39,940 nt of DNA from Acidobacteriota bacterium (lineage in GTDB: Bacteria; Acidobacteriota; Terriglobia; Terriglobales; Acidobacteriaceae), in NCBI GenBank assembly GCA_021792795.1, contig JAJYUB010000034.1:1-39940 (forward strand). The letters are read 5' to 3'. Shown piece by piece: positions 4,131 through 35,356 of this stretch; position 1 is the stretch's first letter; each line of letters opens with the position of its first letter. The translations under genes were made by a program, and so were the position numbers. The notes under the pieces were generated by a model. It searched no databases, was not told the DNA's origin, and was given only the letters and a program-made list of their open reading frames with translations.

Positions 4131-4835
4131 TCAGCCAGCGATACTCTCATCGTTCTCCTTTTGAGTGAAGGCAAAAGACAGCTCTTTCAGCGCGTGCTTC
4201 TGGACTTCCCGCTCAACATTCTGGATCGACATTGGGGCAATGACCGTCATTCCACCCAGCAGGTCGCTAAGGGCCAGATACGAGGCGCGGTTGATATGGA
4301 GAAAGTCGAGAGGGTACTCAGGCTTTCGCGCGCGGGCATGGATCGGGTCCGCATCCAGCAGATAGCTGATATTCGGCTTGGGGACCAACTTTACGATCAG
4401 CCGAGCATATACACGAGCGGCTGGATTGGCCAGCGTCAGGTTCGCGAGCTCGTCGTAGATATATCGGTCGCAAATCACAAAATCCGCACCGGAACGCAAC
4501 GCTTTTTGAAGCACGACCCGGAGCGAGATGGCATCTGCGAAGTAAAGAAACAGCCTGAGCACAGTCATCAGCCGTGAGCGGACGTTTTTGTCCCGCCGGT
4601 CGATGGGCGCTGCCGGAGTTCCAACGCCTGTATCGCCCTGAAACAGGGTGTGTCCGGCCTGCTCCCGAATACGAGTGAACCTGGCAACGTCGTCCCAGAA
4701 AGTGATCAATCGAACGGTATGGTCCGCCTCTTGCAGACGAGCGCGAAGGGTCTCGATTTGAGTGCTTTTCCCGGCGCCATCGATACCGGAGAAACTTACA
4801 AACTTGCAGCGCCGATTTTCTGGGTTGGCATACAT
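4131..4835 (-). CDS. Thymidylate kinase-like P-loop kinase
   Basis: A P-loop NTPase of the thymidylate kinase superfamily, 234 residues. The Walker A motif GIDGAGKST lies at residues 17-25, and the nucleoside-site DRY motif (ICDRY) at 121-125. In the housekeeping enzyme these bind ATP and dTMP. The sequence departs from typical Tmk, with a long insertion between about residues 45 and 90 and no clear C-terminal LID of the usual type, so it may phosphorylate another substrate. Such tmk-like genes often occur in capsule or exopolysaccharide loci; here it is the last gene of a minus-strand run with a flippase and a STAS protein (44 bp after the preceding gene). Start ATG 4835 has GGGAG about 11 nt upstream. 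Superfamily sure; substrate unknown. It should not be read as the cell's essential Tmk. Confidence 0.8.
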   Translation of the reverse strand: MYANPENRRCKFVSFSGIDGAGKSTQIETLRARLQEADHTVRLITFWDDVARFTRIREQAGHTLFQGDTGVGTPAAPIDRRDKNVRSRLMTVLRLFLYFADAISLRVVLQKALRSGADFVICDRYIYDELANLTLANPAARVYARLIVKLVPKPNISYLLDADPIHARARKPEYPLDFLHINRASYLALSDLLGGMTVIAPMSIQNVEREVQKHALKELSFAFTQKENDESIAG

Positions 4836-4879
4836 AAATACGCTCCCACGCTTGTTTCGAAATGTTTTCTGGATCTCTG

Positions 4880-5389
4880 TCAGTGGGGCCGGCTGGGGCT
4901 CGCACTGGAGAGCGCCACGACAGTCCCAATGGCAATGCCGGCGCCCAAGAGCACGCCGACCTTGATCAGGATGGAACGCGCCCGCCTCTGTTTTGCCGGA
5001 GCGATCGCCGCTCCGGACGGTCTGGAGGCGGCAACACCCGTGGTCTTCTCATAGGGCGCTGCCGCTGCGCCTACCGGTCCCGAGGTACCGGTTTGCTGCT
5101 GTTCCTGGGCAAACGAGAGCGAAGCGCTGGACTGTTGATCGATCGTTTGCGCGCGCGCAGCGTCGGGAGCGGCAGGGAAGGATGCTGACGGGGCTGTGTC
5201 CACGGCCGACCTGCCGGTTGCGCGATTGGAGTTTTCGGACTGGGCCGGCAGGGAAGACACGCTTTCTGCTTGAGGGCCGGGAAGCGGTGGTTGCGGTCGC
5301 GCTGTGGCAGCTTCCGCGAACGGCATAGCCAGGAACAACACTAAGCAGATGGCGATCTGCCGGCGCAGCCAATCGCTTGAGATTTTCAT
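4880..5389 (-). CDS. Exported Pro/Ala/Ser-rich protein with C-terminal membrane helix
   Basis: Not recognised as a known family. The start ATG 5389 is set by a strong GGAGGGGG ribosome site just upstream. A Sec signal (about residues 1-27, ending FAEA) is followed by a low-complexity region rich in Pro, Ala, Ser and Gln, then a basic patch (KQRRARS) and a hydrophobic helix (about 137-159: a Gly/Val/Ile-rich run) with a short tail. It probably sits in the inner membrane with most of the chain in the periplasm, or is a sorted surface protein; the helix followed by few residues is loosely like sorting tails, but no recognition motif is seen. It lies between the STAS gene (61 bp upstream) and the tmk-like gene. 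Confidence 0.65.
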   Translation of the reverse strand: MKISSDWLRRQIAICLVLFLAMPFAEAATARPQPPLPGPQAESVSSLPAQSENSNRATGRSAVDTAPSASFPAAPDAARAQTIDQQSSASLSFAQEQQQTGTSGPVGAAAAPYEKTTGVAASRPSGAAIAPAKQRRARSILIKVGVLLGAGIAIGTVVALSSASPSRPH

Positions 5390-5450
5390 TGACCCCCCCT
5401 CCGAACCAGGCGACCCGTTGCGCCCGCCAGAATGAGACCATCCCAACCGG

Positions 5451-5936
5451 TCAAGCCGCATTCGCCGGATCGAGTTGGGAAGGCCCAAGCAAAAATGCCT
5501 GCGCGACCACGTCTGCCGAGGCATTGTCAAGGGCAGTGCAAAACCAGGCCAGTGATTCAGAACAAATAAAGGCCAGCGGAGATGGCAGCAAAAGAGGAAC
5601 ATGTGGAAGTCGATGGAAGCTGTTTACCGCGTCAGCCGTTGTGGCATAGATATCAAAAAGACGGTTTACTCCAGCAAGCTCCAGGGCCGCCCCAGCTCCG
5701 GGAGGCAAAGCTGCCAGTTTGACGTCACCTTTGCATTTCATGGCCTCCTCCAGGCAACAGAGCAGCAGGTAGATAACGGACCTGTCCAGTTGGCGCGCAT
5801 TAGAACAATCGAGCACCATACGAGGGCTGTCGACATTCATGCAACTCTGTATCTCGCGGAGGAATGCCAGCCTTTGCTTCCTGCTCAGTATTTCCGGCAG
5901 ATGTTTCACCGCCACAGTACGCGTTCGAATTGGCAT
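5451..5936 (-). CDS. STAS-domain protein (anti-sigma-factor-antagonist type)
   Basis: 161 residues. The region around residues 35-110 (RMVLDCSNARQLDRSVIYLL onward, then GDVKLAAL and LAGVNRLFDIYATTADAV) fits the STAS fold, with the Asp-x-Ser position (DRS) where SpoIIAA-like antagonists are phosphorylated. The last ~50 residues are an extension not seen in minimal STAS proteins. Start ATG 5936 is chosen because GGATGTGGAG lies just upstream; the frame continues 19 codons further. It is 112 bp downstream of the flippase gene and on the same strand. No cognate anti-sigma kinase or phosphatase is in the window, so a partner elsewhere or a non-sigma role in glycan assembly are both possible. Fold well supported; partner unknown. 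Confidence 0.75.
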   Translation of the reverse strand: MPIRTRTVAVKHLPEILSRKQRLAFLREIQSCMNVDSPRMVLDCSNARQLDRSVIYLLLCCLEEAMKCKGDVKLAALPPGAGAALELAGVNRLFDIYATTADAVNSFHRLPHVPLLLPSPLAFICSESLAWFCTALDNASADVVAQAFLLGPSQLDPANAA

Positions 5937-6048
5937 ATCTCCACATCCTTCTCTGAGTTTGATGCATCTTTCTGTCTTTCTGACAAAGAACACTCGCTGA
6001 ATTTATCCGGGCGATGCCGCCTGACCCTCGCAGGGCGTCGATCTTGGA

Positions 6049-8034
6049 TCACTCGCGGGTCTCCGCGATCCACGATTTTGCAAACAGGCGCCCAAGCCCG
6101 GCATTGGGCCTGCGTACAACGTGCCACAAGACGTTTCTCCCATACCGGAAAAGAGTCGAGAAGCTTGTGTTATACCAGCAGCACTCCGTCATCCTTGGCG
6201 ACAGTCCGCACAAAAACCGAAGCCGATGCACTCTGCTGGGAGACGCCAGCATGGCCGCTACCAACCGATGGTTCCCATCGAGGACCGTGAGAGGTCCGCT
6301 TTCGTTCATCCCGATGAGGACCACGGAACCCAGGTCAGTGTCCTCCTGGAGCCGATCCTGTATCTCGGAGATTTTTGCCAGGAACCGGCGGTCGAGCGCG
6401 TTTTGACCTGTGCGCATGCATTCGGCAATTCCGGTCATTGAGAAATTGCCCTGGGCGATTTTCCGCCACTGGGCCCGTGGAAAGGCCCTGATCTGGTCGA
6501 GGTCATTTTCTTTCACTTCCACCTCATACCATTCCGTTCCAACCGGAAGCTCGCGCCACAAAGCGAGGTGATGCATGAAGAACAGGGCGCGCCGTTTCGC
6601 ATTTTCGCCGGCATCGTCGAGGTCGGGGTCGATGACAATTTTCCGCAGCGTTTCCTGATACTCCCGAAAGGCGGGATTGTTGCAATCGCTCTTCAAAAAT
6701 TCCGCGATGACCTCATTTTCCGTGACGCGGCGAATCGCCCTGACCGGCCGAAACACCCCACTCTGTTGCACCTTGTATGCATTGGTCAGCAAATCGATCA
6801 GAAAGGGCAATGCCACCACAATGAGTAGGACGGTCATCAGCGCCAGTTGCACCAGGATGACCTGGCGCAAGGACGAATGGAAGAAGCAGATTCCCGCGAT
6901 GACAATGCCGCTGAAGGCCAATTGAATCCAACTGGTGTTGGCAATCTTGTAAGACATCTCATAAGTAATGATCACGGCGCTAAGCGAATATACGACCGTG
7001 GTGATGGCGTACAGCGCCAGCAGATAGGGAAGGCCGTATTTCCCGGCGATTGCAAACTCGGCCCCGAAAAGCGCCGTCCAGATCCAGGCGGGCGCGAGGC
7101 GCAGGCCGATGGCCAAGACAGAACCGATGCTCAACACCAGCAACAGGGAAGTTGCGATGACAGTGAGATCTTTCCTCTCCTCCTCGCGTGTGCCTGCCAC
7201 CAGTGGAAACATGCTATTGACGACCGCTTGGGAGATGGAAAAAATCACGCGTCCCACCATCGCCACGGCAGCATAGAGCCCTGCCGCTTCCGGAAGAAAA
7301 AAGTGCTTCACCAGGACAATGTCGCAGTTGTTGATCAGCACCTGGCCGGAATAGAAAACCATTGCCTGCGACATTTCGCGAAGGGCATAGGGTAGACGAA
7401 ACGGGTTCGGAATCCGGGCCGCCAATTTGGGCGTGATGGCGAAATAGGCCACCGCAACTGCCGCGGAATTGGCAGCAATCACTCCCGGGACGCCCAGGCC
7501 CAACAGAATCAGAAGCAGCGAACCACCGAGCCGAACCGCGCCCTCGAGGACGAGATTGGTGGCAAGACGACGGAAGCCGTAAGCGCCCTGAAGATAACCC
7601 CGCCGGCTCCCCAGTGGAACGTAGAAGGCAACTCCGATTGCGAGGAGGACAACGAGGATCGGACCGGGCAGATTCAGATAATCCGTGATCGCTCTCTGAA
7701 ACAACAGCATGAGCATGGCCAGGAGGATGCCGCACGCCCATGCGCCACCATGGAGGCTCCGATAGCCCGCGAACTTTCCCTCCAGAGACTTCTGCTGCGC
7801 CACGACCTTTGCGGAAATGATCTGAAAGGAGAGCGTCACCGCCGATATCAAAGTGAGCAGAGTGTAGACGGCGGTAGCGTTCCCGAAGCCCTGCGGGCCG
7901 AGGTATCGCGCGACTGCGATGTTGTAGGACAGGTTGATTGCGGTTGCGAGCCCTGAACCCGAAAGCAATACAAAGCTTCCCGAGAGAATGCGGGCTTGCA
8001 GCGTCTTCGGCTTCTGGGTCGGACTCTTCAACAC
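6049..8034 (-). CDS. Polysaccharide flippase fused to a ParB-like domain
   Basis: 661 residues. Residues ~15-430 are a multi-helix MATE/MVF-type polysaccharide transporter (Wzx-like): the N-terminus has GSFVLLSGSGLATAINL and the loop ARYLGPQGFG typical of PST/Wzx proteins, with about 12 hydrophobic segments. It should flip lipid-linked glycans across the inner membrane. Residues ~440-661 are soluble and contain TVLDGNHRLVAAML (DGNHR at 586-590), the box II signature of ParB/sulfiredoxin-like domains, then a Cys/Trp-rich tail (TECCWYN). The frame is continuous with no stop or low-quality join, so the fusion looks real. Start is GTG 8034, with GGAG 12 nt upstream. It heads the minus-strand run flippase-STAS-secreted protein-kinase. 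What the ParB-like part does is not known; ParB folds also bind CTP or act as kinases or nucleases. Confidence 0.85.
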   Translation of the reverse strand: MLKSPTQKPKTLQARILSGSFVLLSGSGLATAINLSYNIAVARYLGPQGFGNATAVYTLLTLISAVTLSFQIISAKVVAQQKSLEGKFAGYRSLHGGAWACGILLAMLMLLFQRAITDYLNLPGPILVVLLAIGVAFYVPLGSRRGYLQGAYGFRRLATNLVLEGAVRLGGSLLLILLGLGVPGVIAANSAAVAVAYFAITPKLAARIPNPFRLPYALREMSQAMVFYSGQVLINNCDIVLVKHFFLPEAAGLYAAVAMVGRVIFSISQAVVNSMFPLVAGTREEERKDLTVIATSLLLVLSIGSVLAIGLRLAPAWIWTALFGAEFAIAGKYGLPYLLALYAITTVVYSLSAVIITYEMSYKIANTSWIQLAFSGIVIAGICFFHSSLRQVILVQLALMTVLLIVVALPFLIDLLTNAYKVQQSGVFRPVRAIRRVTENEVIAEFLKSDCNNPAFREYQETLRKIVIDPDLDDAGENAKRRALFFMHHLALWRELPVGTEWYEVEVKENDLDQIRAFPRAQWRKIAQGNFSMTGIAECMRTGQNALDRRFLAKISEIQDRLQEDTDLGSVVLIGMNESGPLTVLDGNHRLVAAMLASPSRVHRLRFLCGLSPRMTECCWYNTSFSTLFRYGRNVLWHVVRRPNAGLGRLFAKSWIAETRE

Positions 8035-8261: not shown

Positions 8262-9215
8262 ATGATGGGGCATACAAGCGCTGCTCTCCTTTTTTTTCTC
8301 CTTCTGTCACATGGCTGTTCTGGTCCGGGGTCGTCCGCGCCGGTGCAGTTGAAATACAAGGCCACGGGAAACTCCCCAGAGGTTCTGGCCCTGTACGAAG
8401 CGTGGTTCGGACACCCCAAGCACATCGCCATCGACTATTCGTCGCATGATCCGGCTGTGATCCGCAGGCAGATTCACGCAGCGAAAGCCATGGGAATATC
8501 CGCGTTCGTGGTGGATTGGTATGGAGATCGCGAGCCCTTCATCGACCGGAGCTATGCCCTGATGCAGGCCAGCGCCGCGAAACGTAAGTTCCATGTCGCG
8601 ATGATGTACGACGAGGCCGACGAAGAAGATGGGGCCACCGACGAAGCCATTGCGGATTTCACGATGTTCCATGAGACCTACCTTTCATCGAAGGCGCCGG
8701 GGCATCAGGCGTACCTGACGTACAAAGGCCGTCCGGTGATCTTCATCTTCCCCAAGGGAGGGCACACAGACTGGGACCGGGTGAGAGCAGTGGTCAACAA
8801 GTGGGACACTCCGCCTCTGCTGATCGATGAAAATCTTCCCGGTCAGTATGCGGATGCGTTGGACGGCTTCTACGCGTGGATCAACCCTGGAGCGAAGGGG
8901 TGGGCGGCGGATGGCGGCAACTGGGGAGAGCAATATCTCAGCGATTTTTATCAGACGATGGTATCGAAATATCCTGACAAAATGATCGTTGGCGGTGCAT
9001 GGTCCCAATTCGACGACAGCAAAGCGACCTGGAGTCTCAACCGGCACATATCCGCGCGCTGCGGCCAGACGTTCCAGGACACGTTCAATTTCTGGCGGAA
9101 ATACGTGCCTGTCGATGACCCTATCCCTTTTGTGATGATCGAAACCTGGAACGATTACGAGGAGGGTTCGGCGGTGGAACATGGCCTTCCCACCTGTGGG
9201 AAGGCATCACAATAG
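8262..9215 (+). CDS. Secreted GH99-like glycosidase
   Basis: 317 residues. The protein matches the GH99/GH71-like superfamily (endo-alpha-mannosidase and WbsX-like): YEAWFG near the start, AKAMGISAFVVDWYG, DEADEED, and the closing ETWNDYEEGSAVE (first Glu at residue 294), where the acidic residues form the family's active-site region. It begins with a hydrophobic leader ending LLSHGC, so it is exported and possibly a lipoprotein, though the lipobox is poor. Two ATGs (8262, 8265) are possible and no clear ribosome site is seen. It is transcribed divergently from the flippase gene and converges on the GtrB-like gene. In a glycan locus it may trim or cleave the polymer. Fold class fairly sure; substrate unknown. 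Confidence 0.8.
   Translation: MMGHTSAALLFFLLLSHGCSGPGSSAPVQLKYKATGNSPEVLALYEAWFGHPKHIAIDYSSHDPAVIRRQIHAAKAMGISAFVVDWYGDREPFIDRSYALMQASAAKRKFHVAMMYDEADEEDGATDEAIADFTMFHETYLSSKAPGHQAYLTYKGRPVIFIFPKGGHTDWDRVRAVVNKWDTPPLLIDENLPGQYADALDGFYAWINPGAKGWAADGGNWGEQYLSDFYQTMVSKYPDKMIVGGAWSQFDDSKATWSLNRHISARCGQTFQDTFNFWRKYVPVDDPIPFVMIETWNDYEEGSAVEHGLPTCGKASQ
9184..9205 (+). repeat. Perfect 10-bp inverted repeat at the 3' end of the glycosidase gene
   Basis: GCCTTCCCAC (9184-9193) and GTGGGAAGGC (9196-9205) are exact inverse copies separated by 2 nt, ending 7 nt before the stop codon. It could fold in the mRNA and act as an end-of-transcript structure, though no T-run follows. A second palindrome, CTATAGCTATAG, lies at 9222-9233. 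Confidence 0.6.
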
Positions 9216-15121: not shown

Positions 15122-18100
15122 TTGATTGTCACACTTGGTTTTGCGAAGGCTGCTTTGATGCCCGTGCTCGCAGTCGCGCTTGCCTCTCCCATTTTGGCGC
15201 AGACCTACCCGGTGGGAGCGGGCGCCTCGGCAAAGCGGCCGCCCCAGACTGAGCCAACGCAGACACCGAGCCAACCGCTGGGTTGGGGATCGAACATTCA
15301 AAACGCGCGGCTGGCGCGTGCCGCGGAATTGGCCCTGCAGCGCGGCGATCATGCGCTCGCTGTGGACTACGCGCAGCGCGCCGCACAAGCTGCCCCCAAC
15401 GATGCTCAAGTATGGTTCCTGCTTGGTTACGCGGCGCGGCTTGACGGGAAGTTCCCGCTATCGGCAGACGCCTATGGTCGAGGTCTTCGCCTGAGTCCGT
15501 CCGCACTGGAAGGGCTTTCCGGTCTTGCCCAGACCTACAGCCTGATGGGACGGACGGACGAGGCCGAGCATCTTCTGAAACAGGTGATTGCGTCCGATCC
15601 AAAGCGTAAAGACGATGCGCTACTGCTCGGAGATCTTTCAATGCGATCGGGCGACTACACTGGCGCAATCGACTGGCTGGGAAGAGCGGAACGGATCCAA
15701 CCCGGCCCGCGTTCGGAGTTGCTGCTGGCGATTTGCTATCAACACCACCAGCAAATGGATCTGGCAAGCCACTACTTAGACTTGGCGAGGCGGCGCGCTC
15801 CGGACAATCCCGAAGTTCAGCGATCGCTGGCGGGATATTACCGGGAGACGGGAAACTATTCCGAGGCGATTGCCTCGCTCAAATCCATCCGCAACCCGAA
15901 ACCGGACGTGACGGCTGAACTGGCGTATACCTATCAGCTCGACGGCAAGCTGGATGAGGCCGCCAGGCTGTACACGCAATCCGCCGATGCCCTGCCGAAA
16001 GACCTGGGTTTGCAGCTCTCCGCGGCTCAGGCCGAGGTCGCTGCCGGTTCTATCTCAGATGCAAACCTGTTTCTCCAGCGCGCCGCGGGGATCGATGCCG
16101 GCCAGTATCGGCTGCACGCAATCCGTGGAGAGATTGCGCAGATCCAGGAGCGCGATGGCGATGCCGTCAGCGAATACAACATAGCCTTGGCACATCTGCC
16201 CGCAAATCCCGTCGAGGGGCCCCTGTACGGCATCCAACTCCACATGGACCTGATGCAGCTCTATCGGGACCAGGAGGACGCAAATACCGCCCAGCATCAA
16301 CTTGAGAAAGCGCAGATGGAAATCGGCGCGCTCGACGAGCATGGCCCCGGCAGAGCGCAGTTTCTACGCCTGCGGGCCCTTATCAAGATGAATGCCGGCC
16401 AGCTCGACAGCGCGCGGAACGATATGAAGGAAGCGCTCGCGATCAGTCCGCACGATCCCAACAATTTGCAGCTCGACGGAGATCTGCTGATGAAACTTGG
16501 GCGCACCGAGGATGCAATCGCGGTGTACAAGCAGGTCCTCGCAATCGATCCTCGCAACCGGTTTGCCCTCACGTCTCTCGGGTATGCCACACGCGCAGCC
16601 GGGCGCGACCCGGAAGCGGAAAAATACTTCAAGCGTCTGGCGCAAGCCTATCCGTCGTTGTACGTTCCGTACCTTGCTCTGGGGGACATGTACACCGCCC
16701 ACCGCGAGTTCACCAGAGCGCAGGCATCCTACAGCAAGGGCTTTGCGCTGGCCCCGCGGAATGCCTTGATTGTGGCCGGAGGAATGAATGCCGCAATTGA
16801 AGCGCACGAACTGGACCTGGCTGGAACGTGGCTGGGCCGTGCCACGGACCGGATGCGGCAGGAACCGCAAATGCTTCGAGAAAGGGAGAGATATCTGAGT
16901 TTTAAGGGCGACTATCGGCAGTCTGCCGAGGTCGGCCAGAAGGCGATCAAGGTGATGCCTCGAGACCGGGATGTGGTTGTCTATCTTGGTTACGATCTGC
17001 TCCGTCTCGAGAAGTACAACGAGCTGCTGACGCTGACCTCGGAATACGACAAGGTTTTCCCTCAGGAGCCTGATGTTCCGCTGTTGGCCGGTTATGTACA
17101 CAAGCACAATGGGCAGCTTGAGCCGGCGTTGCTGGACTTTAATGAGGCGCTGGATCGCGACCCCAATGTGGTCACGGCCTATGTGAATCGAGGATACGTT
17201 TTGAACGACCTGCACAAACCCGCGGCGGCAGCGGAAGACTTTGAATCGGCCCTCACGCGGGAGCCAAAGGACGGAGAGGCGCATCTGGGACTGGCGTATG
17301 CCGACCTCGATCTGCAGCGGCCTCAAGAGGCCGTGCGCCAATCGCAACTGGCGGAACGGGAGATGGGCGACTCGAAGCTCATGCACATGATTCGGGCGAC
17401 AGCCTATGGGCGAGAAGGCATGCTGGCGAAAGCCGCCGGTGAATATCGCGCGGCTTTGAAGTTCACCCCCAACGATGGAACGCTCTACCTGGGGCTGGGA
17501 GACACATTGTTCGCACAGCGGCGTTATCGCGAAGCAGTGGATGAACTGCTGACCGCACAAAAACTTTCCCCAGACGATGCTGGTATATACGCATTGCTCG
17601 CACGCGCCTACGCACATCTGCGGGACCGGGAGCAAACCCTGCGATACGTCCATTTGGCGGAGCAGCACGCCCAGCAAACGCCGGCTGCCGTCGGCAATGC
17701 AAATTCAGCCGACAGCGAAATATTTGTTGCAACAGGAAAGGCCCTGAGCGCGCTTGGAAACCAGAAGGCAGCCATGGAGCGTTTTCAGAAGGCGCTGACG
17801 ACCCCGAACAGCAATCGCGTCAATGTGCGTCTTGCCATCGCCCAACTGATGGCGCAGCAGGACCATGCAGTGGATGCGGAACGGCAAATTGCGTTGGCCA
17901 TGATGGAAGGCGAGGCGGGGGAAACGGCGCCGCCCACAGGAGAGCAATTCATTGCGGCAGCAGATGTCTTTCGGGAAATGCATGAGTATCAACTGTCACA
18001 AACATACCTTGAACGCGCCAAGGCGGCCGGCGCGGCGGACGTAGCTGTGCGGACCGGCCTGGCCAATACCTACCTTGCGCTGGGCGACACAGTCAGAGCT

Positions 18101-19348
18101 CAGGCCGAGCTCGCTGCGGTCAAAAGTACAGCGGAGAGCGCATCGGATTACCAGTATCTGCTGGCCGAGGCCAACGTATACCAGCAGGAACATCAGGGCT
18201 CGGAGGCGCTTACTGCCTTCGCGCAGGCCGCCAGCGCCGCAGGGGAAGATCAAACAGCGGAGCAAAGTCTGCTGCAGGCGGGTGCGAACGAGGGATATCG
18301 AGTTACCCCTGCGCTGAGTTTATTGGCCAATTTCTACGTTCAACCAATTTTTGAAGATACGACGGTGTACGTTCTGGATTCCAAGCTGGATGCTACCTTT
18401 GCGGTGCCGCCGTCTCAATTGGCCCTTCTCCCGCCGCCCCGCTCCTCGCTTGAGACGCAAGGGACCGTCGCCTACCACCTGCATCTGCGCTATCTGCCCA
18501 CCGCGAGCGGGTTTTTTCAGTTGAATAACACGCGCGGACAGATATCCGTGCCCGCCACCAATTCGATCGTCAACCGCGATACGACAGATTACTCGCTCAA
18601 TTTCGGACTCAACCCCACGATCCATCTTGGCAGGAATGTCGTGACATTCAACAGCGGCATTCAAGGGACAATACGCCGCGATTCCTTGTCTCCGCTGGAA
18701 ATGAACCAGAACCTGTTTCGAGCGTTTACGTATGGGTCCACCAGTTCCTTCTTCAATGCGGTTGCAGCCAGCGGATACGCGATCTGGGAAACCGGCCCAT
18801 TTACTGAAAGCAACATCCATTCGCGGGCATTGACTGGCGCGGTTGACTTTCGGGTGGGTCAGCCATGGGGAAAGACCGCTTTGGTGACTGGATGGGGGGC
18901 GAACGACCAGAAGTTCTCGCCGGTGGGCATCGAGGATTACTACACGTCTTCGTATATCGGTCTCTCCCATCGGTTCTCGGACCGGTGGAACGTGGAAGCG
19001 ATCGCGGAAGACCTGCGGGCATGGCGAATCGTCAGCCCGCGCTCGGGAATTGCGCAGGACCTTCGCCCGACCGGGACCATCGACTTCGCCCCCACGCGTC
19101 ATTGGGAAATCCAGGCATCGACTGCTTACTCCAGTACCAGAAGCTTCCACGTCTACGACGCTACCCAGAACGGCATTTCTATCTCGTATGCAATGCCTTT
19201 CCAACACCGATCCAAGGACGAGACCGGAGACATTCATCTGGCGTATCCGATTCGCTTTGCGGCTGGGTTCCAGCAGGAAACTTTCTTCAACTTCACACTT
19301 GGGCACAATCAAACCTTCAGGCCTTATGTGAGCATCACTATCTTTTGA
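15122..19348 (+). CDS. TPR-scaffold outer-membrane beta-barrel protein (BcsC/PelB-like architecture)
   Basis: 1408 residues. An N-terminal signal (about 1-27, ending SPILAQ) is followed by roughly 25 TPR repeats (about 55-1055), with many canonical units such as AYTYQLDGKLDEAARLY and GLGDTLFAQRRYREAVDELL. From about 1065 to the end the sequence becomes strand-rich, with alternating polar/hydrophobic segments and aromatic girdles, ending in VSITIF; a terminal Phe is the outer-membrane assembly signal of beta-barrels. Periplasmic TPR scaffold plus C-terminal barrel in one chain is the layout of BcsC, PelB and PgaA, which export cellulose, Pel and PNAG. It likely exports this locus's glycan. The start is uncertain: TTG 15122, or ATG 15158, which leaves a short signal. 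GT4 follows by 12 nt. Confidence 0.85.
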   Translation: MIVTLGFAKAALMPVLAVALASPILAQTYPVGAGASAKRPPQTEPTQTPSQPLGWGSNIQNARLARAAELALQRGDHALAVDYAQRAAQAAPNDAQVWFLLGYAARLDGKFPLSADAYGRGLRLSPSALEGLSGLAQTYSLMGRTDEAEHLLKQVIASDPKRKDDALLLGDLSMRSGDYTGAIDWLGRAERIQPGPRSELLLAICYQHHQQMDLASHYLDLARRRAPDNPEVQRSLAGYYRETGNYSEAIASLKSIRNPKPDVTAELAYTYQLDGKLDEAARLYTQSADALPKDLGLQLSAAQAEVAAGSISDANLFLQRAAGIDAGQYRLHAIRGEIAQIQERDGDAVSEYNIALAHLPANPVEGPLYGIQLHMDLMQLYRDQEDANTAQHQLEKAQMEIGALDEHGPGRAQFLRLRALIKMNAGQLDSARNDMKEALAISPHDPNNLQLDGDLLMKLGRTEDAIAVYKQVLAIDPRNRFALTSLGYATRAAGRDPEAEKYFKRLAQAYPSLYVPYLALGDMYTAHREFTRAQASYSKGFALAPRNALIVAGGMNAAIEAHELDLAGTWLGRATDRMRQEPQMLRERERYLSFKGDYRQSAEVGQKAIKVMPRDRDVVVYLGYDLLRLEKYNELLTLTSEYDKVFPQEPDVPLLAGYVHKHNGQLEPALLDFNEALDRDPNVVTAYVNRGYVLNDLHKPAAAAEDFESALTREPKDGEAHLGLAYADLDLQRPQEAVRQSQLAEREMGDSKLMHMIRATAYGREGMLAKAAGEYRAALKFTPNDGTLYLGLGDTLFAQRRYREAVDELLTAQKLSPDDAGIYALLARAYAHLRDREQTLRYVHLAEQHAQQTPAAVGNANSADSEIFVATGKALSALGNQKAAMERFQKALTTPNSNRVNVRLAIAQLMAQQDHAVDAERQIALAMMEGEAGETAPPTGEQFIAAADVFREMHEYQLSQTYLERAKAAGAADVAVRTGLANTYLALGDTVRAQAELAAVKSTAESASDYQYLLAEANVYQQEHQGSEALTAFAQAASAAGEDQTAEQSLLQAGANEGYRVTPALSLLANFYVQPIFEDTTVYVLDSKLDATFAVPPSQLALLPPPRSSLETQGTVAYHLHLRYLPTASGFFQLNNTRGQISVPATNSIVNRDTTDYSLNFGLNPTIHLGRNVVTFNSGIQGTIRRDSLSPLEMNQNLFRAFTYGSTSSFFNAVAASGYAIWETGPFTESNIHSRALTGAVDFRVGQPWGKTALVTGWGANDQKFSPVGIEDYYTSSYIGLSHRFSDRWNVEAIAEDLRAWRIVSPRSGIAQDLRPTGTIDFAPTRHWEIQASTAYSSTRSFHVYDATQNGISISYAMPFQHRSKDETGDIHLAYPIRFAAGFQQETFFNFTLGHNQTFRPYVSITIF

Positions 19349-31615: not shown

Positions 31616-34600
31616 CTACGTGGTGGCATCCGCTTTTTTGAAGTGGTTCCGCAGGGGAAGAAAAATTGAGAAACAGGTCCCGCTCTTGCCAGGGCGCACG
31701 CTGCTGCGCATCCGGATCGAGCCGCCCAGCCGGTTGACAATCCCATAGGCGACCCAGAGGCCGAGGCCGATTCCGTGCTCCCCTTTGGTGGTGAAGAAGG
31801 GCTCGAAGATACGCATTTTGTTCTGTGCGGAAATTCCGGCGCCAGTGTCGGCAATGGTAATGCGAATGCCCTGAATCGCCGAGTCGCCGCTTGCCGGGCC
31901 GGGACTCGCAAGACGGTTCCCATTGGATGCATTGCGGACGCGGATGGCAATGGTCCCGCCCGGCAGGGAAGCGTCCGCCGCGTTCACCAGCAGGGTCGCG
32001 AACACTTGACGGATCTCGCCCGGGTAACTGTGGATGATTTCGCTCGAAAGGTACTTTTTTTGTACCGTGGTCCTTTTCTCTTTCATCCGCCGGTCGTAGA
32101 GTTTCAAGATGCCTTCGAGCGTCTCTTCGATGTCGACCGCTTTGGGCGCCGCGCTCTCTCGAAAAAAACCCAGAGACTGGCGCGTCAGGTCGGTTACCCG
32201 GCCAAGTTCCTCCGTGGCCGTCGTCACATAGGACCGGTCCTGTTCGCTCAGCTTGGCAGATCCTTGCAAGATGTTCATCAGGTTGAAGATCGCTTGCAAG
32301 GGGTTGTTGATCTCATGCGCCAGGACAGCGGCCAGACGTCCGGAAACAGCCAGTTTCTCCGACTTGATTAAAGCTGCTTCGGCGAGTTTGCGCTCAGTGA
32401 TGTCCTCAATGGCAAGCAGGACCATCGGCTGCGCGTCCTGCGGTTGGACAAGTGTCCGGGCATTCAACAGCAACGTTCTGCGGCCAAGATTCTCAAAGTC
32501 ATGTTCCACTTCGAAATCGGAGATGGCCTGGCGTTTGGACAGCACTTCCTTCAGCAACGCGCGCAGGATGGGGATGTTCCACTGCCCATTGCCCAGCTTG
32601 AACAAGGGCTGGCCGATGGTCTCGACTGCGGAAACCTTGAAGGTGCTCTGGAAAGACTTATTGATTGCGATGACTCGAAGCTCCGCATCGAGCACCAGCA
32701 GCGGTTCTCTTACCGTATCGATCATTCCGCGGAGGAATTCCGCTGAATGCCGAAGCCGCTCGTTGGCGCTTTTCATTGCGTCGATATCCAGCAGCACCAG
32801 CACAATGCCATCGATCTTGTTGTCCAGTGTCCGGTAGGGGAGGATGTGCAAGGAATGCCAGCGGTCCTGCAGGTCCTGGACATCGCGCTCCGCTGGCTGG
32901 AGGGTCTCCAACACCTTCGCGATCATCTCTTCCATGTCCGGCACTTTGATATTGAGCCGGATGTCCGCGATCGGGCGTCCCACATCGGAGGAAACCGCCT
33001 TCACCAACTGGTCCGCGCTGGGGGTCAAGCGGCGTATCCGCAGATCGCGATCCAGCATGACGACGGGGATCTTTGTGCTGTTCAGGAAGTTCGAGAGATC
33101 GTTGTTCAAATCGTGGAGTTCGGCGTTTTTGTGGCCAAGCTCGTTGTTGAGCGAGTTCAGTTCCTCATTGGCGGACTGAAGTTCTTCTTTGGAGGTTTCC
33201 AGCTCTTCGTTGGTGCTTTGCAGTTCCTCGTTCGCCGACAGTATTTCCTCGTTCGCCGATTGGAATTCTTCCCGGACGGCGTCTTCCGACTCGGTGGCGG
33301 CGCGCAGGGAGGCCTGCGTGGCGGCAAGTTCTTGCTTCAGGCGCGTGAATTCCCGGCCCTTCGCCGTGCTAGGTTTGGCTGTTACCTTTTCCCCTGGGCC
33401 GGAAATCTTTGTGACATCCTCGAACAACACCAGAAAATAACGCTCTTCCTCCGATGGGTCCTTGTCCCCCAGCGGCGAAACAGAAAGATTTAGGACCCGC
33501 TTATGGCCGTTTCCAACAAACGAGATATTGTTTTTGCTGACAGGCGCATTCTTCTTCCTGGCGGCGCCGATCAATGATCGCAGTTCCAGCGCCAGTCCGT
33601 TGCGCGCCAGCTTCAGCAGGTTCAGGCTCGGTTTGCCCGGTGCCGGCTCCAGATACGGGGTCGTGCGCCCGCGGAACTGGACCACTTCCATTGCATTGTC
33701 GATGACCGCTCCGACCGGGGCGTGGTGCTTTAAAACAAAGCGGTCGGCCTCCGCCTCTACGTCCAGTTTGCATTCCTGCGGAGCTTGCGACTCCCGCGCC
33801 TTGTCGGCAACATCCGCGCCGCTTCCAGCCGGATAGCGGGTCTGGGAAAAGTTATAATGCAGCCGCGAGGTGGCCGACTTCTTGGCATAAATTTTGTGCT
33901 TCTTGTCCACCGTGGAGAACAAATTGGGAAAGCCGGAGATGCTTTCAGAGCTTCCCAGGACCAGAAACCCGGAAGGCTTCAGCGCGTAGTGCAGGATGGG
34001 TACGATTTTCTTTTGCAGCTCCGGTCCCAGGTAGATGAGCAGGTTGCGGCAGGCGACGACGTTCATCTGCGAAAAAGGCGGATCGTAGGCCAGGTTCTGC
34101 CGCGCGAAGATGCACATGTCCCGCACCGCCTTGCTGATGCGGTAGCCGTTTGCTTCTTTGACGAAGAAGCGCCGCAGGCGCTCTGGCGATATCTCCTCCG
34201 CGATGCTATCCCGATACAGCCCGGCGCGCGCTTTCTGAATGCCTTTTTCGTTCAGGTCCGTTCCGAATATCTGCACCTGGAAGCTGGCGGCTTTGTCGCC
34301 CAGAAACTCCAGCAGCGTCATCGCCAGCGAGTAGGTCTCTTCGCCCGTGGAGCAGCCAGGCGCCCACATTCGGATGGTGCGTTTGTTGCTCTTGTCCTTC
34401 ACTATGGCGGAATAGGCGTGTTTCTTCAATGCCTCGAAAGCCTCGAGGTCGCGGAAGAAGCTGGTCACTGGGATGAGAACGTCGTCGTACAGCTTCTCCG
34501 TCTCTTCCGGATGCTTCCTCAAATACTTCGCGTATTCGCCCAGCGATCCCAGCCGGAGGATCATCACGCGCCGCATGGCGCGTCGGTAAATGGTATTGGG

Positions 34601-35356
34601 CTTGTACTGAGAAAAATCGGCGCCGCTCACTTTTCGCAACAAGTTGAGGATCCCGTTGAAATCGTCTTCTCCCGCCGGGGACGGTTCGATGTCGGCTTCA
34701 TCCTTGACCTGGCTCACATAAGGATGGCGATGTATCCGCTCCAGCTCTTTTGCAATTGCTTTTGGCGACAGAACAAAGTCCACGCATCCGGAAGCGATGG
34801 CGCTGCGCGGCATGCCATCGTACTTCGCGGTGGCAGGGTCTTGCGCGAAGGTAATGCCCCCGGCCGCCTTGATGTCGGTCACGCCTAAGGTGCCATCGGC
34901 CCCGGTGCCTGAAAGCACGACTCCAATTGCGACGCTCTTGCGCTCCGCCGCCAGAGAGCGCATAAAGAAGTTGACCGACAAATGTTGGCCCGGTTCTTTG
35001 CTTCGCGGCGTAAGGACGAAGGCGCATTCCTCGATCGCCATGAAAGCGTCGGGAGGGATTACATAGACGCGATTGGGCCTGATCCTGGTCCCCGACTTGA
35101 CCTCGTCGACTGGCATCCTGGTTGCTTTGGAAAGGATTTCCGCCAGCAGGCTGTGATGGCTTGGATCGAGGTGTTGCACCAGTACGAACGCCATTCCGGT
35201 GTCCACCGGCAAGGCGTGAAAAAATTCCGTATAGGCTTCCAGTCCGCCAGCGGACGCTCCGACGGCCACGATTGGGAAAAAAGCATTCTGAGCGTCCGCT
35301 ATTTTGCCGGGACTTTCCTCCGCGGGGGAAACGGGTTTGGACGTTCTGGGTCCCAT
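31616..35356 (-). CDS. CheB-CheR-PAS-histidine kinase fusion
   Basis: 1246 residues. In order: CheB-type methylesterase (about 28-210) with the triad Ser 35 (GASAGG), His 61 (HLDPSHH) and Asp 153 (GTGADGTLG); CheR methyltransferase (about 230-500) with the SAM loop GCSTGEE at 333-339; a coiled-coil with repeated SANEE/STNEE units; two PAS domains; then HisKA and HATPase. The phospho-accepting His is at 1014 (HEINNPLQ), the N box at about 1125 (NAADAS), G1 DTGAGIS and G2 GIGLGLW. Such proteins are widespread in soil bacteria, and no receptor or response regulator is adjacent, so the target is elsewhere. Start ATG 35356. All catalytic residues are present. Known as a family; function poorly known. 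Confidence 0.93.
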   Translation of the reverse strand: MGPRTSKPVSPAEESPGKIADAQNAFFPIVAVGASAGGLEAYTEFFHALPVDTGMAFVLVQHLDPSHHSLLAEILSKATRMPVDEVKSGTRIRPNRVYVIPPDAFMAIEECAFVLTPRSKEPGQHLSVNFFMRSLAAERKSVAIGVVLSGTGADGTLGVTDIKAAGGITFAQDPATAKYDGMPRSAIASGCVDFVLSPKAIAKELERIHRHPYVSQVKDEADIEPSPAGEDDFNGILNLLRKVSGADFSQYKPNTIYRRAMRRVMILRLGSLGEYAKYLRKHPEETEKLYDDVLIPVTSFFRDLEAFEALKKHAYSAIVKDKSNKRTIRMWAPGCSTGEETYSLAMTLLEFLGDKAASFQVQIFGTDLNEKGIQKARAGLYRDSIAEEISPERLRRFFVKEANGYRISKAVRDMCIFARQNLAYDPPFSQMNVVACRNLLIYLGPELQKKIVPILHYALKPSGFLVLGSSESISGFPNLFSTVDKKHKIYAKKSATSRLHYNFSQTRYPAGSGADVADKARESQAPQECKLDVEAEADRFVLKHHAPVGAVIDNAMEVVQFRGRTTPYLEPAPGKPSLNLLKLARNGLALELRSLIGAARKKNAPVSKNNISFVGNGHKRVLNLSVSPLGDKDPSEEERYFLVLFEDVTKISGPGEKVTAKPSTAKGREFTRLKQELAATQASLRAATESEDAVREEFQSANEEILSANEELQSTNEELETSKEELQSANEELNSLNNELGHKNAELHDLNNDLSNFLNSTKIPVVMLDRDLRIRRLTPSADQLVKAVSSDVGRPIADIRLNIKVPDMEEMIAKVLETLQPAERDVQDLQDRWHSLHILPYRTLDNKIDGIVLVLLDIDAMKSANERLRHSAEFLRGMIDTVREPLLVLDAELRVIAINKSFQSTFKVSAVETIGQPLFKLGNGQWNIPILRALLKEVLSKRQAISDFEVEHDFENLGRRTLLLNARTLVQPQDAQPMVLLAIEDITERKLAEAALIKSEKLAVSGRLAAVLAHEINNPLQAIFNLMNILQGSAKLSEQDRSYVTTATEELGRVTDLTRQSLGFFRESAAPKAVDIEETLEGILKLYDRRMKEKRTTVQKKYLSSEIIHSYPGEIRQVFATLLVNAADASLPGGTIAIRVRNASNGNRLASPGPASGDSAIQGIRITIADTGAGISAQNKMRIFEPFFTTKGEHGIGLGLWVAYGIVNRLGGSIRMRSSVRPGKSGTCFSIFLPLRNHFKKADATT

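Follow-up and report, generated by a model that had tools for sequence, protein, structure and literature searches.

The window analysed here is a stretch of 39,940 nucleotides from the genome of an acidobacterium of the family Acidobacteriaceae (contig JAJYUB010000034.1). On its minus strand lies a gene for a membrane transporter that continues into a soluble domain, followed by genes for a STAS-domain protein, a small protein and a P-loop protein resembling dTMP kinase (table 1). A flippase fused to a further domain had been proposed at this place; the coordinates given for it are right, and the two parts are encoded by one open reading frame.

Table 1. Features of the fused gene and of the genes behind it, by position in the window.
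Feature	Position	Strand	Basis or remark
Fused gene, MOP/Wzx-type flippase + C-terminal ParB/Srx-fold domain	8034..6049	minus	GTG start, 661 aa, stop-free open frame
Flippase part, residues 1-412, MOP-superfamily exporter	6799..8034	minus	~12 TM helices; N- and C-terminus predicted cytoplasmic
Soluble ParB/sulfiredoxin superfamily-fold domain, residues ~431-661	6052..6744	minus	AlphaFold2 model, VIA-align
Glu439, invariant acidic residue, first helix of domain	6718..6720	minus	38/38 diverse members and 8/8 in alignment with distant relatives
FPRAQW, residues 518-523, possible Box I equivalent	6466..6483	minus	F, P, R, W invariant 38/38
DGNHR, residues 586-590, Box II / P-motif equivalent (GxxR)	6265..6279	minus	alignments
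STAS-domain protein, next gene; true start maybe internal	5451..5993	minus	PF01740 23.5 bits, cut-off 22.6
Small protein	4880..5602	minus	likely start near 5389; by eye, a hydrophobic, signal-like segment at the N-terminus and another hydrophobic segment at the C-terminus
dTMP-kinase-like P-loop protein	4131..4835	minus	PF02223 45.0 bits, cut-off 27

Hydropathy analysis divides the protein into a hydrophobic N-terminal part of ~412 residues and a soluble part formed by the last ~230. Eleven segments of the flippase part rise above the hydropathy threshold; model helices 154–177 and 181–199 suggest that the one at 169–187 is in fact two, for a total of 12 transmembrane helices, and loop charges and hydropathy are consistent with a topology in which both termini lie inside. 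When the full-protein model (pLDDT only 72.1) was searched with Foldseek, residues ~12–412 proved MOP-like, with matches to MATE exporters (E = 2.2e-6), WzxE (1.5e-4) and MurJ (1.7e-3); 31 of the 32 matches at E ≤ 0.001 are titled MATE, MOP or WzxE and the remaining one 'protein A'. The MOP/WzxE fold bears out the Wzx-like transporter of the original prediction. Against PF01943 the window gene scores 24.2 bits and one flippase from the split clade described below 24.1, the cut-off being 28.2, and the whole 661-aa protein has no acceptable family in Pfam, NCBIfam or PHROGs. Two further PF01943-like frames, of 469 and 528 aa, occur in the same genome, both below the cut-off. With WzxE, MurJ and MATE exporters the window protein has in common the fold, the ~12 transmembrane helices and the nearby glycosyltransferase genes; it differs in bearing a ParB/Srx-fold domain, predicted to be cytoplasmic. 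The membrane part is probably a Wzx-type flippase that would flip sugar-lipid (glycolipid) units, a substrate to which the neighbouring glycosyltransferases point.

The soluble part, modelled by AlphaFold2 over residues 419–661, reached a mean pLDDT of 83.5 and a pTM of 0.80. Foldseek comparison of this model with the PDB returned nothing significant, with a sulfiredoxin (E = 0.68) and Noc at the top and unrelated proteins interspersed below. Realignment of 321 Foldseek candidates with VIA-align listed 26 entries, all of them from the ParB/Srx superfamily: 18 are titled as such, and the other eight are KorB, two SbnI, 1vk1, 2hwj, 4ovb and two SspE. The best Z is 6.8 over 87 residues (rmsd 2.7), with seven sulfiredoxins at 5.9–6.8, Noc and ParB-type proteins at 3.8–6.2, and SbnI and free serine kinase at 4.7–5.0, where a Z below 8 is weak alone. 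Because the VIA-align list is uniform despite moderate Z, the C-terminal domain is accepted, on its modelled structure, as a ParB/sulfiredoxin superfamily fold with moderate structural scores and no sequence-profile match. Structure prediction had been suggested as a check, and the objection that the fold might not be ParB-like failed.

Sequence families gave a different picture from that of the fold. The domain is covered by no family in Pfam, NCBIfam or PHROGs, PADLOC gave nothing useful, and viral models produced only weak ParB-like matches to it, none at E ≤ 0.001. The ParB_N family PF02195 matches five places in the window's own genome, none at this gene; it has no match in the window protein, and the families listed for 29 members do not include it. 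A profile-to-profile comparison against 23 ParB_N sequences gave E-values of 0.03–0.08 at a probability of about 1%, which is not counted as proof; it pairs VVLIG...LTVLDGNHR of the domain with PILVR...FQLIAGERR. No Pfam family for an HTH or a C-terminal dimerization domain is among those listed for the 29 C-terminal parts. Matches of the protein to CoV_E (E = 0.037) and to an ACT domain (E = 0.45), and of the domain profile to AlgJ (E = 1.8), were taken as chance. DndB, counted in the ParB superfamily by PMC3482391, is touched by one of the 29 members (E = 0.036), too weakly for use.

The soluble part contains LDGNHRL at residues 585–591. All 29 close members have DGNHR, and GNHR (587–590) is invariant in all 38 diverse members, a set hand-picked from the collected loci and 38–68% identical to the window protein; it is preceded by D in 14 of them and by E in the other 24. 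The phosphate-binding GxxR motif also retains its G and R in 8 of 8 sequences of a smaller alignment that includes three distant stand-alone relatives; since GxxR is kept, NTP binding by the domain is favoured. Other residues invariant in the 38 members include E439, R481, E495, W502, FPR at 518–520, W523, T583, G610, S612, C619 and W620, and the place of FPRAQW in the AlphaFold2 model makes it a possible equivalent of Box I. Sulfiredoxins carry the motif GCHR with a catalytic Cys, and SerK carries DGHHR. The [DE]GNHR of the family resembles the SerK motif with one of two His replaced, and GNHR resembles that of sulfiredoxin, the position of the catalytic Cys being Asn in all 38 members. The proposed ParB-like part with a DGNHR ParB box thus stands at the level of fold and motif and falls as a matter of family profiles. 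With ParB, Noc and PadC the domain shares the fold and the GxxR P-motif, and differs from them in lying outside PF02195, in having no detected HTH or dimerization domain, in its attachment to a flippase and in the acidic residue before the G. SerK/SbnI and sulfiredoxin likewise share the ParB/Srx fold, whereas the window domain is membrane-bound and has no Srx-type catalytic Cys.

A scan of genome contigs found relatives of the gene in 32 loci of other assemblies, all acidobacterial by their titles and with 53–75% identity in the best segment. Two of these, L031 and L033, sit at the end of a contig and consist of the C-terminal part only; L010, L027 and L028 are each without one end. Among 61 related genomes, matches, fused or split, are confined to 21 of the window's family, and the 24 genomes of other families have none. 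Across a phylum sample the first domain profile matched 7 of 396 genomes, again all in the window's family, in a search that missed a distant relative later found by a broader profile; phyla beyond Acidobacteriota were covered through plasmid and phage records. Within the family, the domain profile matches 149 of 398 genomes, in 51 of 79 genera, and the flippase-part profile (E ≤ 1e-40) matches 148, every one of which also has the domain. None of the 398 genomes, then, carries this flippase type without the domain, and only one (G740) has the domain alone, with a weaker match (E = 2.6e-20) and no flippase match. Joining of two genes by a sequencing or assembly error could be imagined, given that one sister clade encodes the two parts separately, but the fused frame recurs in many other assemblies, including that of the isolate Acidipila rosea DSM 103428, and most rows listed in the 398-genome search sit in frames of more than 550 aa. 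The fused relatives among the 32 loci and the 398-genome survey refute such an error, to which we attach a negligible probability.

The original prediction had called for a search for the domain as a separate gene beside flippases, and this arrangement was found, as an overlapping gene, in a sister clade. The domain occupies its own frame in 27 collected loci, lying directly after the flippase gene in 25; the other two (L039 and L040) are second copies. Twenty of the split loci were chosen because their frames in the 398-genome search were short, whether or not a flippase was present; a few further short frames from that search were left out. Stop and start codons overlap by 4 nt at 23 of the 25 split junctions, as ATGA in 22 and GTGA in one; of the remaining two, L084 overlaps by 26 nt, and L038 lies at a contig end without a clear start. 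A stretch containing GGAG or GAGG occurs within 16 nt upstream in 21 of the 25. A tree was built from 70 loci, of which 46 are fused and 24 split. All the split loci fall into one clade, and a single change explains the labels; the clade has a support of 1.0 when the two parts are combined, 0.998 with the flippase alone and 0.978 with the domain alone. The clade is nested inside the fused loci both under midpoint rooting and with the two second copies as outgroup, the latter for the domain tree only and with supports of 0.69–0.96 along the path. Nesting under both rootings makes fission likelier than fusion, with the root uncertain. The overlapping start and stop may substitute for covalent linkage, which argues for a fixed complex of flippase and domain.

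The genes behind the flippase gene recur as a group. The small protein has no Pfam match. The dTMP-kinase-like protein scores 43.3 bits against TIGR00041, under the cut-off of 83.25, and the genome has a full match to dTMP kinase (159.4 bits) at another place, so that the neighbour is probably not the housekeeping enzyme. The downstream side was compared in the 52 loci that extend 3.5 kb or more in that direction; they are non-independent and include some near-identical pairs. In 46 of them relatives of the small secreted or membrane protein and of the dTMP-kinase-like protein are encoded next, in the orientation of the flippase gene, whereas six (L029, L043, L044, L045, L047 and L091) have no same-strand kinase-like gene within 4.5 kb. 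A same-strand STAS gene is near in 44 of the 52 (24 times downstream, 20 times upstream) and by the same measure absent from eight; STAS and kinase-like genes occur together in 43. In 23 of the 25 split loci, a STAS gene and a nucleotidyltransferase-like gene come just before the flippase. The STAS protein, small secreted or membrane protein and dTMP-kinase-like protein (window 4131–5993, minus strand) can be described as a conserved module behind the flippase.

Relatives of the domain also occur alone. The second copies L039 (6587–7564, plus strand) and L040 (6561–7583, plus strand) have a hydrophobic N-terminal segment and no nearby flippase; they adjoin a gene that by eye resembles aroA, and both genomes also carry the fused gene. 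The broader profile found a distant stand-alone relative in another acidobacterial family (E = 1.6e-13; L136, 1293–2336, minus strand), near a frame that by eye resembles the N-terminus of DUF4062-type proteins. Two more lie on plasmids of Streptantibioticus and Kitasatospora (Streptomycetaceae; L145, 9001–9591, and L146, 9004–9585), the Kitasatospora one, whose context is annotated, among unrelated genes and without a flippase. The plasmid relatives are 34.5–35.4% identical to the acidobacterial stand-alone protein, and all three are 21–23% identical to the window domain; they share with it E439, E441, R481, W502, W523, G587 and R590, and their motif reads GHxR. Searches gave no match for the window domain among phages and plasmids, none for the split-clade domain among plasmids and none in viral contigs; the distant relative from genome G242 has one partial phage match, to Fusobacterium phage JD-Fnp1 (32% covered, E = 3e-3). 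These distant relatives place the domain in a wider, unnamed family that became joined to a flippase in one acidobacterial family, and the copies without a flippase, together with the two with hydrophobic N-termini, indicate that flippase regulation cannot be its sole role.

What has been computed is the fusion, the fold class, the invariant motif, the co-occurrence, the ATGA overlap of the split clade and the conserved neighbourhood. We propose, at slightly less than an even chance, that the protein is a Wzx-type flippase for a lipid-linked oligosaccharide, with a cytoplasmic ParB/Srx domain that binds a nucleotide or nucleotide-like ligand and thereby controls or couples the flippase. The tail domain would lie on the cytoplasmic side and bind a nucleotide or nucleotide-like phosphorylated ligand through GxxR; the ligand-bound tail would then control or couple the flippase, and export would track the supply of nucleotides or sugar nucleotides, or the state of the STAS and dTMP-kinase-like partners. 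That the domain binds nucleotides is probable, and the arrangement as a whole suggests that in this family of soil bacteria surface-polymer export is nucleotide-controlled or nucleotide-assisted. A narrower form, in which CTP, ATP or a sugar nucleotide bound to the domain opens or closes glycolipid transport and so couples export to the precursor pool, we hold only tentatively. According to PMC12704722, the ParB fold can bind CTP, ATP or GTP, and among binders the change of Arg to Ala in the GxxR motif abolished NTP binding; nucleotide specificity is not reliably predictable from sequence, and no particular nucleotide is therefore named for the domain. The same source counts against a nucleotide in reporting that 17 of 28 purified ParB-fold proteins showed no NTP binding in vitro, and the failure of PF02195, the low ParB_N profile probability and the stand-alone relatives without a flippase also speak against nucleotide control.

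Two other readings compete with it. The domain could be a phosphotransferase like SerK/SbnI or sulfiredoxin, using a nucleotide to phosphorylate a small molecule, the lipid-linked glycan or a membrane-located partner protein, beside the flippase that would export the product, and such an enzyme would work fused or split. An acidic residue precedes the motif G in 38 of 38 and 8 of 8 sequences, recalling the SerK motif, and the invariance of Glu439 and Arg481 even in the distant stand-alone relatives goes beyond the needs of plain binding. Sulfiredoxins, whose phosphotransferase activity is stressed in PMC3482391, are the top structural matches and are accompanied by SbnI and free serine kinase; SbnI and SerK, however, rank no higher than DNA-binding ParBs, and the Asn in place of the catalytic Cys departs from sulfiredoxin, leaving a phosphotransferase on the doubtful side. 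We also regard as unlikely a docking or scaffold module that binds no nucleotide and through which the flippase would recruit the STAS protein, the kinase-like protein or glycosyltransferases. The conserved neighbourhood would suit it, the invariant FPRxxW and CW motifs could serve as interaction surfaces, and the many ParB-fold proteins without NTP binding in vitro (PMC12704722) agree with it, but the motif G and R are common to the distant stand-alone relatives, and the Kitasatospora relative has none of these neighbours. Nuclease activity, which had been offered as another reading, is conceivable for some members of the superfamily according to PMC3482391; for this domain nothing was found in favour of a nuclease or of a DNA-partition function.

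To our knowledge, the control of Wzx-type flippases is poorly understood. A precedent for the preferred reading, control by a ligand-binding tail, is the mycobacterial MurJ (MviN). PMC6180346 describes a pseudokinase domain on the intracellular side of that protein and proposes that the flippase is down-regulated when this domain is phosphorylated; that the domain is not essential weakens the precedent. Both proteins join a MOP flippase to a cytoplasmic domain of nucleotide-binding fold that is thought to be regulatory, whereas the mycobacterial protein has a protein-kinase fold, 14 transmembrane helices and a peptidoglycan precursor as substrate, in contrast to a ParB/Srx fold and probably a surface glycan here. 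New are the combination and the unnamed domain family; the flippase superfamily and the fold are known. A literature search conducted largely outside subscription papers found no report of a flippase–ParB fusion. The main text of PMC12704722 does not contain 'flippase', 'Wzx', 'transmembrane' or 'Acidobacteri', and the domain-centred part of its survey started from PF02195, which misses the window domain. The family provides a natural, lineage-wide link between a Wzx-type flippase and a fold recently shown there to bind CTP, ATP or GTP, and a gated flippase, if that is what it is, would put the ParB fold to work far from DNA. The soluble half lends itself to separate production, and with a split version existing in nature the idea is directly testable.

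The window also holds genes beyond this group. A GH71/GH99-like protein (8262–9215, plus strand) is just below the Pfam cut-off; of the 37 fused loci that extend 1.2 kb or more upstream, 31 have a relative of it transcribed divergently from the flippase gene. At 15122–19348 (plus strand) a 1408-aa TPR protein is followed by a group 1 glycosyltransferase, and similar TPR and glycosyltransferase frames lie upstream of the flippase in split-clade loci. A hybrid CheB–CheR–PAS–histidine kinase of 1246 aa is encoded at 31616–35356 (minus strand).
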